Assembly: GCA_002009475.1 (NCBI GenBank)
Contig: AYTS01000061.1
Coordinates: forward strand, 1-64,000
Source: Candidatus Brocadia carolinensis
GTDB taxonomy: Bacteria > Planctomycetota > Brocadiia > Brocadiales > Brocadiaceae
Direction: 5' to 3'
DNA: 64,000 nt
The notes under the pieces: model-generated
The model's input: the letters and a program-made list of their open reading frames with translations, nothing else
Databases searched by the model: none
Told to the model about the DNA's origin: nothing
Translations under genes and position numbers: made by a program
Shown here: positions 35,869-42,561 of the stretch, piece by piece
How positions within the stretch are numbered: the stretch's first letter is position 1
Layout of the letters: every line of letters begins with the position of its first letter

Positions 35869-38055
35869 TTATTTTGTAATGGCAAGGTCTTGCTTTTTTA
35901 TCTTCCCTGTGCCTTTTGTGCTTATTCTGGCAAACGAGGTGTCAGGCTGTACCTGTACTATTCGGGCAACGGCATCCAGCGGTTCTTTTAAGACGACATC
36001 TCCCTCTTTTACCTCCCGAAACGTCAGCAATTTCATGCCTACTAACACCCCGCTCGTTGCGCCGGCATTGACATGGAATCCATTCCCTGAAACACGGATA
36101 ATACTCCCCTGCACCATAGGATATTGCCGTTTCATTTTGAGTGATAAACCATGCATGAGCCACGCAAGGTTTTCCGCGCTTTTGTCCTCGCCGTAGATAT
36201 CCGTATTAACCAGCACCTGAGTCGTTTCCGTGTCTACCAGCCGCAGGGTGACGTTAATGCCATTGGAATCCTCTTCCACAGCGCCAAAGAGCATACCCTC
36301 GGCCGCACGGATCTTCCCGACCCTTATGGCCGTGTCGGGAGAGGTAAGTTCTGTGTTGGCGATTTTTTGTTCACGAAGGATCTCCTCAAGTTTTGCCCGG
36401 TCACGTTCCACAAAGTTAAATCTCTTCGGATCTTCATCAAATGCCCTGAGCAACAGGGAGTACAGGGTTTCCGAGCGAACACCTTCTTCTGCAAACGTCC
36501 TGAAGGGGAGCAATGCGACGGTATACCGGGCATCCGTTTCCAGGAGATAAAAGCTCTTTTTGGTAATCTTCACCGGTGCAAGCTGCGTTTCGTTTCCCTC
36601 TCTGTCAACGGCCTTTACCAGTACGGTATTCTCTCCTTCGCTGAGCGTTACCAGATGATTAAAGAAGACGTGCTTCGCCGGACGTATCTCTAAAGGCTGC
36701 TGATTGACGAAGAGCCGGGCAATACCGCCATCGTCGTGCGCATGTATGCCGAAGAAGACGGTTGAGTCATGGACAATCGCGGCTTTTAAATCAGAAAATA
36801 CCACCGGAGGAATCGTGTCTTTTGACGCTATCGGTGAGACAGACGCCCCTTTTGCTTCTTTTCCTGAATTTTCAGCGTTCCCGCGGGAAGGATTTGTGAA
36901 AGCTGATTGTGCGCCCGCCTCGTGAGAAGCCAGCATCCTCTTTACTTCGGCCCTTCCCATGTTACCTTGAGCAACCAGGACGGGTGTACCCTTTGCCTGG
37001 TGCGTGTACCGGATCTGTTTGTCCCGTGTGCCGCCGGGCAATAGTGATGCCTTAATGTCTAGTTGTTCTTTGCCCGTTGTTTCATTTCCAGCCACATCGA
37101 CCACCTTTATTGAGAAGGTATGGCCGTCCGTCAGGGCAATATCCTGCTTAAAATGCACCACTTTATCCTGAGTAATGGGTATCTCCGTGTTATTAAGAGA
37201 GAGTCGCTGTATCCCGTTGTCGTCCGTGATGGTTCCCGTCACAGTTGCAATATGCCTGCCGTCTCTCTTCTGTATTTGTATATCATCCAGATACAAAACC
37301 GGCGGGCTCAGATCCAGCATGAGTTTCAAATCATGCCGTGCACTTTTGCCTGAAAGGTCAGTTGCCTCCAGACTGATCACATTCTCTCCCCTGTGGAGGG
37401 AAATGGTTTCGTCGAACGGAAGGTCCTTTTCGGCAAGTTCAATGAATAGTCGTCTCCCCTGGATAGAGATATCGTTTACATAGGAATCGTCAGTAACCAT
37501 CCCTTGTAACTTTACCAGCGGAGTATTGACAATCTGTCCATCACTATGTGAGGCAACCATGAACTCCGGGGGTTTCGTGTCCCCTTTCGTCATCTTTATG
37601 AGTGCCTCATTGGCTTTATTCAGATAATACTTTGCCCTGGCAGAATCGGCAGTGGAGAGAGATATTTCGAGCTCCTTTTTAGCATCTTCATATTCGCCCT
37701 GGTGGTAATACACGATTCCCAGTTCGCGATGGGCAAAGTATTCCCAGAAATGCATCCCGTAACTCCTGGCTGAACGCTGGTCACGACTTCTCAGATGGAT
37801 AGACTTTTGAAAGTCCTGGACGGCCTCATCATAGTGCCCACCGTCAGCAAACCATCGGCCGCGGATGTAGTAGTTCCACCACTTGCCCCGGTGAAGGTTA
37901 AAATTCCTGGCAATCTCTTCTTTCGTATGACCCGGCTCGAAATAATCCCGCCAGTTGTCCGTGCCAATCTGAGAAGTTGTTGTACAACCCGCAAGAGGCA
38001 CGAGAAACACGTGCAGTATCATAAGGAATCTGAATTTTTTATATACGGTATTCAC
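35869..38055 (-). CDS. TPR-Ig-like-CsgG lipoprotein
   Basis: A lipoprotein (lipobox VPLAGC) of about 728 residues. Near residues 55-170 lies a TPR region (YYIRGRWFADGGHYDEAVQDFQ, GIVYYHQGEYEDAKKELE). Two or three Ig-like beta domains follow with recurring ENVISLEATDLSGK/ENTVLVKAVDREGNE blocks. The C-terminal 240 residues are a CsgG/FlgO-like domain (YTVALLPFRTF, FNFVERDRAKLEEILREQ) with a closing small beta domain. Domains of this type occur in envelope assembly proteins and curli secretion. GTG 38055 was taken as start; a TTG at 38073 is possible. Its C-terminal half is duplicated in the gene at 39093. Confidence 0.8.
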   Translation of the reverse strand: MNTVYKKFRFLMILHVFLVPLAGCTTTSQIGTDNWRDYFEPGHTKEEIARNFNLHRGKWWNYYIRGRWFADGGHYDEAVQDFQKSIHLRSRDQRSARSYGMHFWEYFAHRELGIVYYHQGEYEDAKKELEISLSTADSARAKYYLNKANEALIKMTKGDTKPPEFMVASHSDGQIVNTPLVKLQGMVTDDSYVNDISIQGRRLFIELAEKDLPFDETISLHRGENVISLEATDLSGKSARHDLKLMLDLSPPVLYLDDIQIQKRDGRHIATVTGTITDDNGIQRLSLNNTEIPITQDKVVHFKQDIALTDGHTFSIKVVDVAGNETTGKEQLDIKASLLPGGTRDKQIRYTHQAKGTPVLVAQGNMGRAEVKRMLASHEAGAQSAFTNPSRGNAENSGKEAKGASVSPIASKDTIPPVVFSDLKAAIVHDSTVFFGIHAHDDGGIARLFVNQQPLEIRPAKHVFFNHLVTLSEGENTVLVKAVDREGNETQLAPVKITKKSFYLLETDARYTVALLPFRTFAEEGVRSETLYSLLLRAFDEDPKRFNFVERDRAKLEEILREQKIANTELTSPDTAIRVGKIRAAEGMLFGAVEEDSNGINVTLRLVDTETTQVLVNTDIYGEDKSAENLAWLMHGLSLKMKRQYPMVQGSIIRVSGNGFHVNAGATSGVLVGMKLLTFREVKEGDVVLKEPLDAVARIVQVQPDTSFARISTKGTGKIKKQDLAITK

Positions 38056-38199
38056 TGTGTGTTCTACCCTCAACGAATGAGATCTTTCCCTGTTCTCGCA
38101 GGTAGGTCAGGCGTTCTCGTCCCGCAGTATCATGACAGACAGTGACATATGTCCAAGTATAAGGAATTTCAAGCCGGTTATTTCCCCTCCAAAAAGCCG

Positions 38200-38355
38200 T
38201 GTAGGGTAGGCCCACCTACTAAGATTAACTGAGTCGGGCAATGTCCGCCCTACATCACTGCGGATTATCAGGCTTCGCCGCCGTGAGCGCAGACGAACGG
38301 CTTGCAATCCGAACCCATTCCCCTCCCTCGATGGGAGGGGCTAGGGGAGGGTGGG
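38200..38355. repeat. Block of short palindromic repeats downstream of the endonuclease gene
   Basis: It contains the GTAGGGTAGG...CGGGCAATG...CGCCCTACA unit (38207-38257), a CGAACGGCTTGCAATCCGAACC unit, and a CCCTCCCTCGATGGGAGGGGCTAGGGGAGGGTGGG-type G/C-rich unit (38320-38355) that runs into the last codons of the DUF559 gene. Related units are at 30742-30797, 30903-30920 and 46356-46370. Confidence 0.75.
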
Positions 38356-38682
38356 ATAAACAACATTTCTTATCATCTCCAATACCCCTTGTGAATTTTT
38401 TAAAACTTTGTTATTCCAAAATCTTAAAACTTTAAAACCCTGCTCTTCAAACCACCTATCTCTATTCCCATCCTTTTCTGCACAATGTTGACCGCCGTCA
38501 ACTTCTACAATTATTCTTTTTTCATAACATACAAAATCGACCACATACTTACCAATCGGTTCTTGTCTTCTAAATTTACAACCTCCTAACTGTCTCAATC
38601 TTAAATATCTCCATAATAACCTTTCTGCATCTGTAGGCCTTTTTCTCAGAACTTTAGCTATATGCTGAAACTCATCTCTCAA
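38341..38682 (-). CDS. DUF559 (Vsr-like) endonuclease domain protein
   Basis: A 113-residue protein with the PD-(D/E)XK/Vsr-like fold of DUF559: LRKRPTDAERLLWRYLR at the start, CKFRRQEPIGKYVVDFVCYEKRIIVEVDGGQH in the centre (catalytic Asp and the ExD pair) and FKVLRFWNNKVLKN near the end. Such proteins probably bind or cut DNA; the function is not known. The last residues (VVYPTLP) are encoded by a G/C-rich palindromic repeat, and a matching unit lies just upstream (38695-38730). The gene sits between the two CsgG-type paralogues, in repeat-rich DNA, and looks like a passenger. Confidence 0.85.
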   Translation of the reverse strand: MRDEFQHIAKVLRKRPTDAERLLWRYLRLRQLGGCKFRRQEPIGKYVVDFVCYEKRIIVEVDGGQHCAEKDGNRDRWFEEQGFKVLRFWNNKVLKNSQGVLEMIRNVVYPTLP

Positions 38683-39092: not shown

Positions 39093-40148
39093 TTATTTTG
39101 TTATAGCAAGGTCTTTCTTTTTTACCTGCGTAGGGCATTCTCCACAGATTTCAACAAAAGCAGTCCTGGGCTGCACCCGCACGACTCGTGCAACCGCATC
39201 AAGCGGCTCTTTTACAACGAAATTCCCTTCCCGTATCTCACGGAAGAGTAATAATTTCATACCCACCTCTATGCCCTTTGCAGAGCCTGCATCTACGTAA
39301 AAACCACCGTCGGAAACACGAGTAACGTTCCCCTGCACCATGGGAAACTGCCGCTTTATCTTCAAAGACAGCCCGTAGATAAGCCATTCGAGATTTGTTA
39401 TACTTTTATCTTCATCATACACACGTGCGCTTGCACGTATGCGGGCCGTTTCCGTATCAATCAGACGCAAGGTGATGCTTATGCCATTGGCGTCTTCGTC
39501 CGCCGTTCCTACGAATATCCCATCTGCCGCGACGATCTTCCCAAGCTTTATCGCTGTATCAGGAGACACAATGCTGGTGTTGCTGATTTTTTGCTCACGG
39601 AGGATCTCTTCGAGCCTTGCCAGGTCCCGCTCCACAAAATGAAATCTCTTCGGTTTTTCGTCGAATGCCTTGATGAAAAGAGAATAGATAGCTTCTGTGG
39701 GTATGCTCTGTCCGGCAACGGTCTTTATCGGAAGCAGTGCAACGGTATACCGGGAATCTGTCTCAGGCAGATCGAAGGTCTTTTTGGTAATTTTCACCGG
39801 CGAAAGCTGCATTTCGTTTCCCCCCCTGTCAACGGCCTTTACCAGTACGGTATTCTCTCCTTCGTTAAGCGTTAACAGATGATTGAAGAAGACGTGCTTC
39901 CCGGCACGGATTTCCAACGGGTGTTGATTTACGAAAAGTTGCGCAACACCGCCGTCATCGAACGCTTCGCCGCTAAAGAAGAGGTTGGTATCGGTAACCA
40001 TAACGGATTTTAGATCAGTATATATCACCGGCGGTATAGTATCCTTTACCGTGTCTGATAAAGTGGTAACAAAGCTTATGAAAGGCGATACAAACAACAC
40101 AACAAGTGCATGGCATCTGATTTTTTTATATAAAGCGTTTCTCTTCAT
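39093..40148 (-). CDS. Ig-like-CsgG exported protein, paralogue of the TPR-CsgG protein
   Basis: About 351 residues: signal sequence (CHALVVLFVSPFISFVTT), one Ig-like domain (PPVIYTDLKSVMVTDTNLFF, ENTVLVKAVDRGGNE) and a CsgG-like domain (YTVALLPIKTV, FHFVERDLARLEEILREQ). It matches the C-terminal half of the 728-residue protein at 35869 in order and spacing but lacks TPR and lipobox. ATG 40148 (GAAGGTGG upstream) was preferred to GTG 40163. It begins 54 bases behind the caspase gene and is probably co-transcribed with it under the c-di-GMP riboswitch. Its seven-A run at 40121-40127 is intact. Confidence 0.8.
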   Translation of the reverse strand: MKRNALYKKIRCHALVVLFVSPFISFVTTLSDTVKDTIPPVIYTDLKSVMVTDTNLFFSGEAFDDGGVAQLFVNQHPLEIRAGKHVFFNHLLTLNEGENTVLVKAVDRGGNEMQLSPVKITKKTFDLPETDSRYTVALLPIKTVAGQSIPTEAIYSLFIKAFDEKPKRFHFVERDLARLEEILREQKISNTSIVSPDTAIKLGKIVAADGIFVGTADEDANGISITLRLIDTETARIRASARVYDEDKSITNLEWLIYGLSLKIKRQFPMVQGNVTRVSDGGFYVDAGSAKGIEVGMKLLLFREIREGNFVVKEPLDAVARVVRVQPRTAFVEICGECPTQVKKKDLAITK

Positions 40149-40202
40149 ACGGACCACCTTCACCCATCAGATTATTACGGAATCTGCCACAAAACAATGG
40201 GG

Positions 40203-42198
40203 TCATTTTCGTTTCGCAACAATTTTTTCTCTCATCTTTGCAGCTATGTCATACGCCACAGTCCCCAAATTTTCCTCACTCCGGAAGGGGTGTTCAAACA
40301 CATCGATGAGTGTAGTCGCCGTGTCAACTACCTCTATCCTTATCATGCGCTGATCCTGCCCTTCTCCCGGATAGATTTCTCCAAAACAAAGGAACTGAGC
40401 GCCTTGTATCTTTCCCAGCTCGACTCTGTACATCTCATCGGCAAGAACAGAGCCGCTGAGCCTTTGTTCCCGTAAAATCTCCTCTTGCAATTCCAAATCC
40501 CTTTCTACCACACGCAAATCGCTTTGTGCCAGGAGGGCATCGATGATCCTTTGCCGGAGCATCTCCATGTTGTGCCGGTTTGATAGTGCACCCATTTTTA
40601 AGTTGAATTCCTTAACAGATACAGGCACAGCGCGGAGAGCGTCTGCGGATGCCGGGTTTTTCTCTGACGGTTTTTTGGCGAGCACCGGCTTTTCTTCCCC
40701 GGTTTGTTTCTTTACCATGGTCTCTAATTCTTTGATAAGGGCATCGATATTTTCCTTTGTCTTTTGCAAATCTGCATTCTGAAGCACCGTTTCTGCATAT
40801 ACCGATTGGGTACTCTCGGGAGTAATAGCTTCCGGCATGGTAACATTTTGTTTTTTATTATTCAACAGTATCGTAGTATTCGTTTTCTCACCTGATTCTA
40901 CGTAAACCGGAGAAGGTCTGTCTGCGTCTGCATATGCCATGCGCGCACCACCAGAAGCGCCGGAATTGTCACCAAAATAAAATTGTTCAAAGAGTTGCTC
41001 TGAATAGACCTCTGTCATTTCATCAGGATTGATAAATACCGTGCCTGGTACATCCGGGTGACCCCTCATTTTTATCATAACGGGATATACCCCGCTTGCG
41101 AGTTTTATGTTCAGTGGAGTGATACCCACTTCCTTGCCTTTTATATATACCGTTGCACCCTCAGGTTTGCCATAAATACGCAGACCTCCCCAGGGAGGTG
41201 TTGCAATTTTTTGAGCACCCACTTTGATACCGGTTTCTACTCCGGGAAATCCCAGGGGAAGATTGTTGTCAAAGTTTCCTGAGACATCCGGGTGCTGGGT
41301 GTTGTGTGTTGCACTCCTTACTTTTTCTTCTGCAAAATCGAATGCCTCTGCAAGGGTAACGATGCCGTTTTGGTTTCCTGCTGCATCTGCCTTTCCTCTT
41401 AAACCTTCAAGCAGATAGTGGGTAAATACGCCGTGACCACCCCCAAATTGATTGGACTCTACGGAAACCTCGCTTGCCCTGCTCGCGCTGACAATCCCCC
41501 ATCCCTCGCGCGTTGATTTAAGCGTGGAAAGCGCTGCATGAATCGTGTTCGTCCTTCCTCTGATATTTACAGTACTTTTTGTAAGGCCGGAGCTGTGACA
41601 GGCATCTGCAAAGAAGACCAGCCTTTTTGCCGCGATGTATCGCTTCATGTCGGCATTGACATCTTCCATGTGATAAGCAGTTGCAGACAGGCTGCCGGCT
41701 TCAGAGTCATGCATGAGTAAGTAGAGATTGCTGGGCCGGTCGGGTTCGGGTTCGCCATGACACGCCATGAAGATAACGACAAAATCAGTCTCCTTTGCCT
41801 TTTTAAGAAAGTTGGTGATAGACAGCGTGACGTTTTTCAGGGTTGCCTGCTCGTTCTTTAAGAGTAAAACGTGGTCTTTCTTAAAATCGCCACCGGCCGG
41901 ACTGGTGATAAAATCATAAAAGGCCTGGGCATCAGCGTCAGCATATTGCAGATCGGCTATTCGGGGGTCATTATAATCTGATATGCCAATCACGACAGCA
42001 TACCGCTGAATATCATTGTCTTCAAAATATTGTTTGGGCGGTAGTATACCGTGAACAAAAGCATCTCCACCTTCTTTTTTTTTTCGTTGATGCCGTCTCC
42101 AGAGGAGATGCATCGGCAAAAAGGCTGACCAAAACTATTGATAAGGCGAGGCACAGATACCTCCTGGCGTACAAGAGAAACAAGAAAATAGTATTCAT
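40203..42198 (-). CDS. Exported caspase-like peptidase with PEGA and CsgG-like domains, split by a T10 run
   Basis: A signal sequence (CLALSIVLVSLFADA) leads to a C14 caspase domain: YAVVIGISDYND, catalytic His in FMACHGEPEP (about residue 147) and Cys in FFADACHSSG (about residue 200). A PEGA domain follows (GLRIYGKPEGATVYIKGKEVG), then a charged linker with a coiled coil and a CsgG-like C-terminus (LRVVERDLELQEEILREQ). Signal and caspase are in different frames; removing one base in the ten-base run at 42075-42084 joins them as ETASTKKKEGGDAF. ATG 42198 lies nine bases behind GGGGG and directly after a c-di-GMP riboswitch-terminator. Peptidase targets are unknown. Confidence 0.85.
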
Positions 42199-42212: not shown

Positions 42213-42265
42213 AAAAAAACAAAAGCCTTACTGCAAAGATTTCTCAACATCTTCGGCAGCAAGGC
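42213..42265 (-). terminator. Riboswitch-controlled intrinsic terminator in front of the caspase gene
   Basis: On the minus strand GCCTTGCTGC... (42265-42256) pairs with GCAGTAAGGC (42234-42225), one mismatch, and is followed by TTTTGTTTTTTT (42224-42213). The left arm is also the 3' part of the c-di-GMP aptamer, so aptamer and terminator cannot both form. The simplest reading is an ON switch: ligand-bound aptamer prevents termination. Confidence 0.75.
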
Positions 42266-42372
42266 TATCTTCTAAAAATCGACCTGAAACTTTAACTCAG
42301 ACCAAAAACTTAGGATTTGATGGAAGATCCTTTACTTTGCGCCCCCTGATCACTCAGGGTTTACCTTTATCG
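42251..42372 (-). ncRNA. Class I cyclic di-GMP riboswitch (GEMM-I)
   Basis: Read on the minus strand, the element has the GEMM-I order: GGTAAACC, a P2 hairpin CCCTGA-GTGA-TCAGGG with a GNRA tetraloop (42357-42342 region), the conserved GGCGCAAAGTAAAGGATC stretch (42343-42326), a P3 stem formed by GGATCTTC and GAAGATAGCC, and a closing TGCTGCCGAAG. These are the conserved parts that bind c-di-GMP in the class I aptamer. It ends about 50 bases before the start codon of the caspase-PEGA-CsgG gene and overlaps an intrinsic terminator. The window also encodes a GGDEF/EAL protein (3911-8707). Confidence 0.88.
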
Positions 42373-42561
42373 TGATGTATTCATACTATTAAATGTGAGC
42401 CTTCTGTTTAACTATATAGCAATATAAATACCACAAACTGGAAAACGAAGCCTATCAATAATAGGTTTTCCATAAGCCATTTTTTGACTTATGGTTGTAA
42501 TTATTCAAGGGAAGATACAAACAGAAGGGACTTATTAAACTCAATATAAAAAAAGTGAGAC

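Follow-up and report, generated by a model that had tools for sequence, protein, structure and literature searches.

A c-di-GMP-I riboswitch, predicted to be an ON switch, precedes a caspase-PEGA-CsgG operon in Candidatus Brocadia carolinensis

The pilM cGAMP riboswitch of Geobacter metallireducens has been shown experimentally to be an ON switch, in which the terminator sequesters the ligand-pairing C75 (PMC9262584), and in Clostridioides difficile the c-di-GMP-I riboswitch Cdi-1-12 acts as an OFF switch upstream of the exported protease PPEP-1 (CD2830) (PMC8428550, PMC7865049). Literature searches, which missed most subscription journals, returned no work joining c-di-GMP to the control of bacterial caspases and none on c-di-GMP riboswitches of anammox bacteria; the text of a survey of prokaryotic caspase homologues makes no mention of PEGA or of riboswitches (PMC3501461). 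Here we analyse a 64,000-nucleotide stretch of a Candidatus Brocadia carolinensis contig (the window; features in Table 1), where we read a transcriptional ON riboswitch of class c-di-GMP-I that controls a caspase-PEGA-CsgG operon, with a probability of about 0.83. As an RNA, the riboswitch is a typical representative of an established class; the novelty, as far as checked, lies in its target and in the size of the regulon.

Table 1. Features of the riboswitch-caspase locus, in window coordinates
Feature	Position	Strand	Basis
Sigma-54-like -24/-12 promoter TGGTATTTATATTGCT (GG-N10-GC)	42418..42433	-	motif score; function inferred
c-di-GMP-I riboswitch aptamer	42251..42374	-	RF03167 and RF01051 scores, both above cut-off
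C equivalent to ligand-pairing C92, sequestered by the terminator	42256	-	model mapping and fold
Intrinsic terminator, left arm = aptamer 3' strand, T-run TTTTGTTTTTTT	42213..42266	-	-23.9 kcal/mol, z -6.4
ATG of the signal-peptide frame (MNTIFLFLLYARRYLCLALSIVLVSLFADASP...)	42196..42198	-	aligns with the start of uninterrupted orthologues
A10 run at which the signal-peptide and caspase frames part by one base	42075..42084	-	run absent from orthologues
Caspase-PEGA-CsgG-like protein (extent of the open frame; translation probably begins at 42198 and passes through the A-run)	40203..42119	-	PF00656 1.1e-15, PF08308 7.3e-13
Peptidase_C14 (caspase) domain; His 41759-41757, Cys 41600-41598	41277..42005	-	PF00656, orthologue alignment
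CsgG-domain protein, about 40 bases 3' of the caspase gene	39093..40163	-	PF03783 8e-7
TPR / Ig-like / CsgG-domain protein, further downstream, putative operon member	35869..38073	-	PF03783 5.6e-7, PF09136, TPR

A cmscan search of the whole window placed the aptamer at 42374..42251 (-), where RF03167 (c-di-GMP-I-GGC) scored 61.1 bits (E 5.7e-12, gathering threshold 59) and RF01051 scored 53.9 bits at the same site (gathering threshold 35), so that the minus-strand GEMM-I aptamer of the first-pass annotation is confirmed by both models, including the RF01051 search that had been proposed as its check. It is built of a P1 5' strand CACGA, a P2 whose GUGA cap agrees with the GNRA cap described at first pass, a P3 with an insertion and the 3' end GCUGCCGAAG; by model mapping all P2 pairs form, and together P2 and P3 show 18 of 18 consensus pairs, two of them G-U. 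The terminator (AGCCUUGCUGC.CGAAGAU/AUCUUUGCAGUAAGGCU + UUUUGUUUUUUU) folds at -23.9 kcal/mol, a stability reached by 0 of 500 dinucleotide shuffles. The aptamer ends in 16 bases, from 42266, that double as the left arm of this strong terminator, and the leader is accordingly predicted to be an ON switch. The C at 42256 pairs with a G in the terminator fold; the free fold of the leader, with the terminator, has -48.3 kcal/mol as against -35.4 kcal/mol for the best fold that holds the aptamer (a gap of 13 kcal/mol), and before the right arm is transcribed the free fold and the best aptamer-holding fold differ by less than 4 kcal/mol. The overlap of aptamer and terminator seen at first pass is real and includes the C92 equivalent, and the ON logic proposed with it holds as a prediction. 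The same layout was found in 43 of the 48 leaders scored (44 of the B. carolinensis genome and 4 orthologue leaders), all five caspase leaders among them.

In the mechanism that we propose, the transcript would start about 35 bases before the aptamer, probably at the sigma-54 promoter. Without c-di-GMP the downstream arm GCAGUAAGGC would take the aptamer 3' strand (AGCCUUGCUGC, including the ligand-pairing C), the terminator would form and transcription would end at the T-run, whilst with c-di-GMP the 3' strand would be kept in P3 and the binding pocket, the terminator would be blocked and the caspase-PEGA-CsgG operon would be transcribed. High c-di-GMP, as in the sessile, aggregated state, would then switch on an envelope or exported caspase along with about 40 further units under such riboswitches, which encode mainly surface proteins and exported proteases. 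The putative promoter is found in all five caspase leaders, 30-46 nt before the aptamer, with a near-perfect score of 19.2 of 19.7; the five share the motif TGG[CT]A[CT]N5TTGCT (consensus tested: GG-N10-GC with TGGCACG-N4-TTGCW), and TGGYAYN5TTGCW has a single occurrence in the whole window. Shuffled leaders reach a score of 17 in 1.5% of cases, statistics that are after the fact because the motif was spotted by eye before the scan, and as the five leaders share descent the common motif is partly inherited similarity. RpoN is encoded in the genome (its DNA-binding domain was found), a few other leaders of the genome have sites of the sigma-54 type and many have TTGACA-type sites. Sigma-54-like promoters before a subset of leaders suggest double control, by an enhancer-binding protein and by c-di-GMP.

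The caspase shares 82% identity with its orthologue in Candidatus Brocadia sp. WS118 and 74% with that of B. pituitae, and an aptamer stands directly 5' of the orthologous gene in both (63 bits and a weak 37.5 bits) and in two further Brocadia genomes, G021 (58.6) and G023 (58.1), followed each time by the same terminator and an ATG. Five Brocadia genomes therefore hold the aptamer-terminator-caspase arrangement, each with a sigma-54-like promoter just 5', whereas the gene upstream of the leader differs (htpG in the window, tatC in both WS118 and B. pituitae). Since the orthologues in Brocadia G019 and in the other genera and families examined lack an aptamer, the link does not hold generally, and we rejected a universal aptamer-caspase linkage. 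Two other caspase subfamilies are found directly behind an aptamer and terminator: a caspase of about 280 aa (second C14 subfamily) in G023, G020 and G022, and in G016 a protein of 577 aa whose caspase domain is C-terminal (third subfamily). Among 11 Brocadia genomes 9 of 26 C14 matches lie directly behind an aptamer, where chance placement of a gene would give about 1.1%. Because the genomes are related, these are not independent events; counting the three subfamilies is safer than 9/26 and gives a binomial probability of 8e-5 on the assumption of eight subfamilies. Conserved in five genomes and present separately with two further subfamilies, the link between switch and caspase, first drawn from this one locus, is real and repeated. 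A single acquisition was considered but did not emerge from the tree, in which the cluster of the five riboswitch-bearing caspases has weak support (70/6) and genus g5 lies beside it. Most riboswitch-less orthologues (L037-L053) have an extra N-terminal segment of about 100 residues, FecR-like by eye though not a Pfam match, which the riboswitch-bearing ones lack. A phage origin of the caspase was rejected, with no match in the phage collection. A second aptamer lies directly 3' of the ~280-aa caspase gene and before the next gene at four loci (L116 2381-2463, L123 1271-1368, L122 1242-1361 and L118 2629-2729), so that this caspase and its neighbour, a papain-like C70-type protease in G020, are probably switched separately.

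The B. carolinensis genome is a MAG of 3.73 Mb in 209 contigs, in which 44 RF03167 and 42 RF01051 matches mark 45 places with a c-di-GMP-I aptamer, the weakest of them uncertain; the genome thus carries about 45 riboswitches, and the caspase belongs to a large regulon. Brocadia genomes have 19 to 56 aptamers each (56 in G016) and other anammox genera have fewer. The first genes behind the aptamers are mostly of surface type (Ig-like, lectin-like, beta-propeller, beta-helix, DUF11), together with proteases and related enzymes (two subtilases, a peptidase M6, a papain-like C70, a transglutaminase-like protein and an amidase); a peroxidase, a secretin and a type III-B CRISPR operon also occur. 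A PF00656 search found exactly one C14 gene in the genome, the one behind the window aptamer. There are 14 GGDEF domains, one of them in the window, in keeping with the GGDEF protein already noted there. On contigs C192, C197 and C87 of G000, aptamers come in pairs that point the same way and are separated by a few hundred bases, each with its own terminator. The CRISPR operon (L081 446-8801; G000:C85:107646 onward) has an aptamer and terminator about 176 bases before cmr1, and consists of cmr1, a nucleotidyltransferase/HEPN-like pair, cmr1, cmr2 in pieces and cmr3-6; other Brocadia cmr1 loci lack an aptamer, and a conserved CRISPR link was rejected.

The target gene matches PF00656 with 58.5 bits (cut-off 21.4), and the caspase-like peptidase first recognised behind the aptamer, of a family related to the cell-death enzymes of animals, is confirmed (PF00656 1e-15), with a PEGA domain beside it (PF08308, 7e-13). 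The C-terminal part of the protein has no Pfam match and is CsgG-like by resemblance to the two following genes; in WS118 and B. pituitae, too, the caspase is followed by two CsgG-domain genes, with the order unchanged. In the window a DUF559 (endonuclease-like) gene (38341-38682, -) lies between the two. A sequence search found no solved structure of a matching sequence, and an AlphaFold model of the caspase built from three sequences (pLDDT 36) was discarded. The likeliest function, in our view, is that c-di-GMP permits transcription of an envelope or exported caspase, with a probable role in surface remodelling, within a programme of aggregation; there is less support for a role in death or defence. 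The caspase could instead be a programmed-death or anti-phage effector armed by c-di-GMP, as might be read from its match to the generic caspase model of PADLOC, from the CRISPR operon in the regulon of the same genome and from the two caspase types without an obvious signal peptide under the same switch in other Brocadia. We think this unlikely, as the partners in the operon have CsgG domains and PEGA is part of the caspase itself, features typical of the envelope, PADLOC found no partner, toxin or sensor, from a known defence system, the regulon members are mostly surface proteins and exported proteases, and the CRISPR link occurs in one genome only.

The description of the target at first pass as an exported caspase with an intact dyad stood in one part: the His-Cys dyad is conserved throughout the caspase orthologues (20 of 20), but the signal peptide is out of frame as assembled. 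The signal-peptide frame (signal peptide judged by eye), opening with the ATG at 42198, and the caspase frame lie one base apart at the A10 run in the assembly, whereas they are in frame in four orthologues. The frame break may be an assembly error, slippage or a real mutation. Were it a frameshift that has cut the signal peptide off a decaying gene, the switch would here control a pseudogene. That one-base difference is the argument for decay, which we nevertheless regard as quite improbable, since past the run over 620 codons remain intact with the catalytic residues included, the four orthologues behind the same switch are uninterrupted, and a 10-base homopolymer in a draft MAG is a possible assembly error or slippage site.

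The ligand of the switch is most readily taken to be c-di-GMP. Riboswitches for cGAMP are marked by a G-to-A change at position 20. All 44 aptamers of the genome have G at this position and 43 of the 44 have A at position 47, and C92 is C in 45 of the 48 leaders, the remaining three being unreadable by the pattern used; by sequence, the canonical G, A and C at the three ligand contacts argue for c-di-GMP and against cGAMP. The 'GGC' in the name of RF03167 presumably stands for these three positions. Both Rfam families belong to clan CL00126, and the window RNA shares with them the aptamer fold, the conserved cores and the G20/A47/C92 positions; RF03167 scores highest because of the overall sequence, and its consensus has G where the window RNA and 43 of 44 in the genome have the canonical A at position 47, whilst the P3 insertions here are long. 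We therefore did not accept the RF03167 match as proof of a variant pocket. One aptamer, at G000:C107:70028-70145 (-), reads CGCGAAGG and, like the RF03167 consensus, has G at position 47; the genes after it are on the opposite strand. That the window aptamer senses 3',3'-cGAMP (GEMM-Ib type), which would link the caspase to a different signal, is suggested by a fold and ON layout common to cGAMP riboswitches (PMC9262584, PMC8835794) and by a top Rfam family that is the variant RF03167 and not RF01051; it is very improbable, with A20, the mark of cGAMP, absent from all 44 aptamers of the genome, and we rejected this specificity. Finally, a chance terminator beside a relic aptamer with no switching function is scarcely credible, given that the two are conserved as a unit in 43 of 48 leaders, all five of the caspase among them, and that P2 covaries: over 31 distinct sequences 98% of its pairs are kept, whereas shuffles give 85% (89% at the highest), and one pair appears as T-A, G-C, C-G and A-T among the aptamers compared.

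More broadly, we lean towards a picture in which a c-di-GMP RNA regulon spans the whole genome in Brocadia, with 19 to 56 riboswitches in each, and at least three caspase subfamilies were captured into it separately, to be switched on directly by c-di-GMP during aggregation (granule formation). With about 45 riboswitches here and up to 56 in G016, the c-di-GMP regulon of Brocadia may rank among the largest that are RNA-based. If true, the arrangement would link second-messenger signalling to caspase expression, a link of which we found no description in the literature searched, and a direct second-messenger switch would offer a testable answer to the question of when bacterial caspase homologues are made. 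The switch also points to a part for the caspase in the sessile, aggregated lifestyle of anammox bacteria, the granules of which are important in wastewater treatment.

Compared with known systems, the window riboswitch resembles that of pilM in that aptamer and terminator are predicted to be mutually exclusive and the terminator takes the ligand-pairing C, but the pilM riboswitch senses cGAMP (A20) and controls type IV pilus genes (PMC9262584). The caspase shares with the prokaryotic caspase homologues and metacaspases surveyed earlier the C14 domain, the His-Cys dyad and, in its orthologues, a single N-terminal helix or signal peptide, and differs from them in its PEGA domain, its CsgG-like partners and its predicted riboswitch control (PMC3501461). 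The first-pass remark that such control of a caspase was unfamiliar holds for caspases, for which we found no other case in the literature searched, but for exported proteases PPEP-1 is a precedent (PMC8428550). There too a c-di-GMP-I riboswitch lies before an exported protease, one that processes surface proteins (PMC8428550, PMC7865049); PPEP-1 is a zinc metalloprotease under an OFF switch, whereas the window has a caspase-family cysteine protease under a predicted ON switch.
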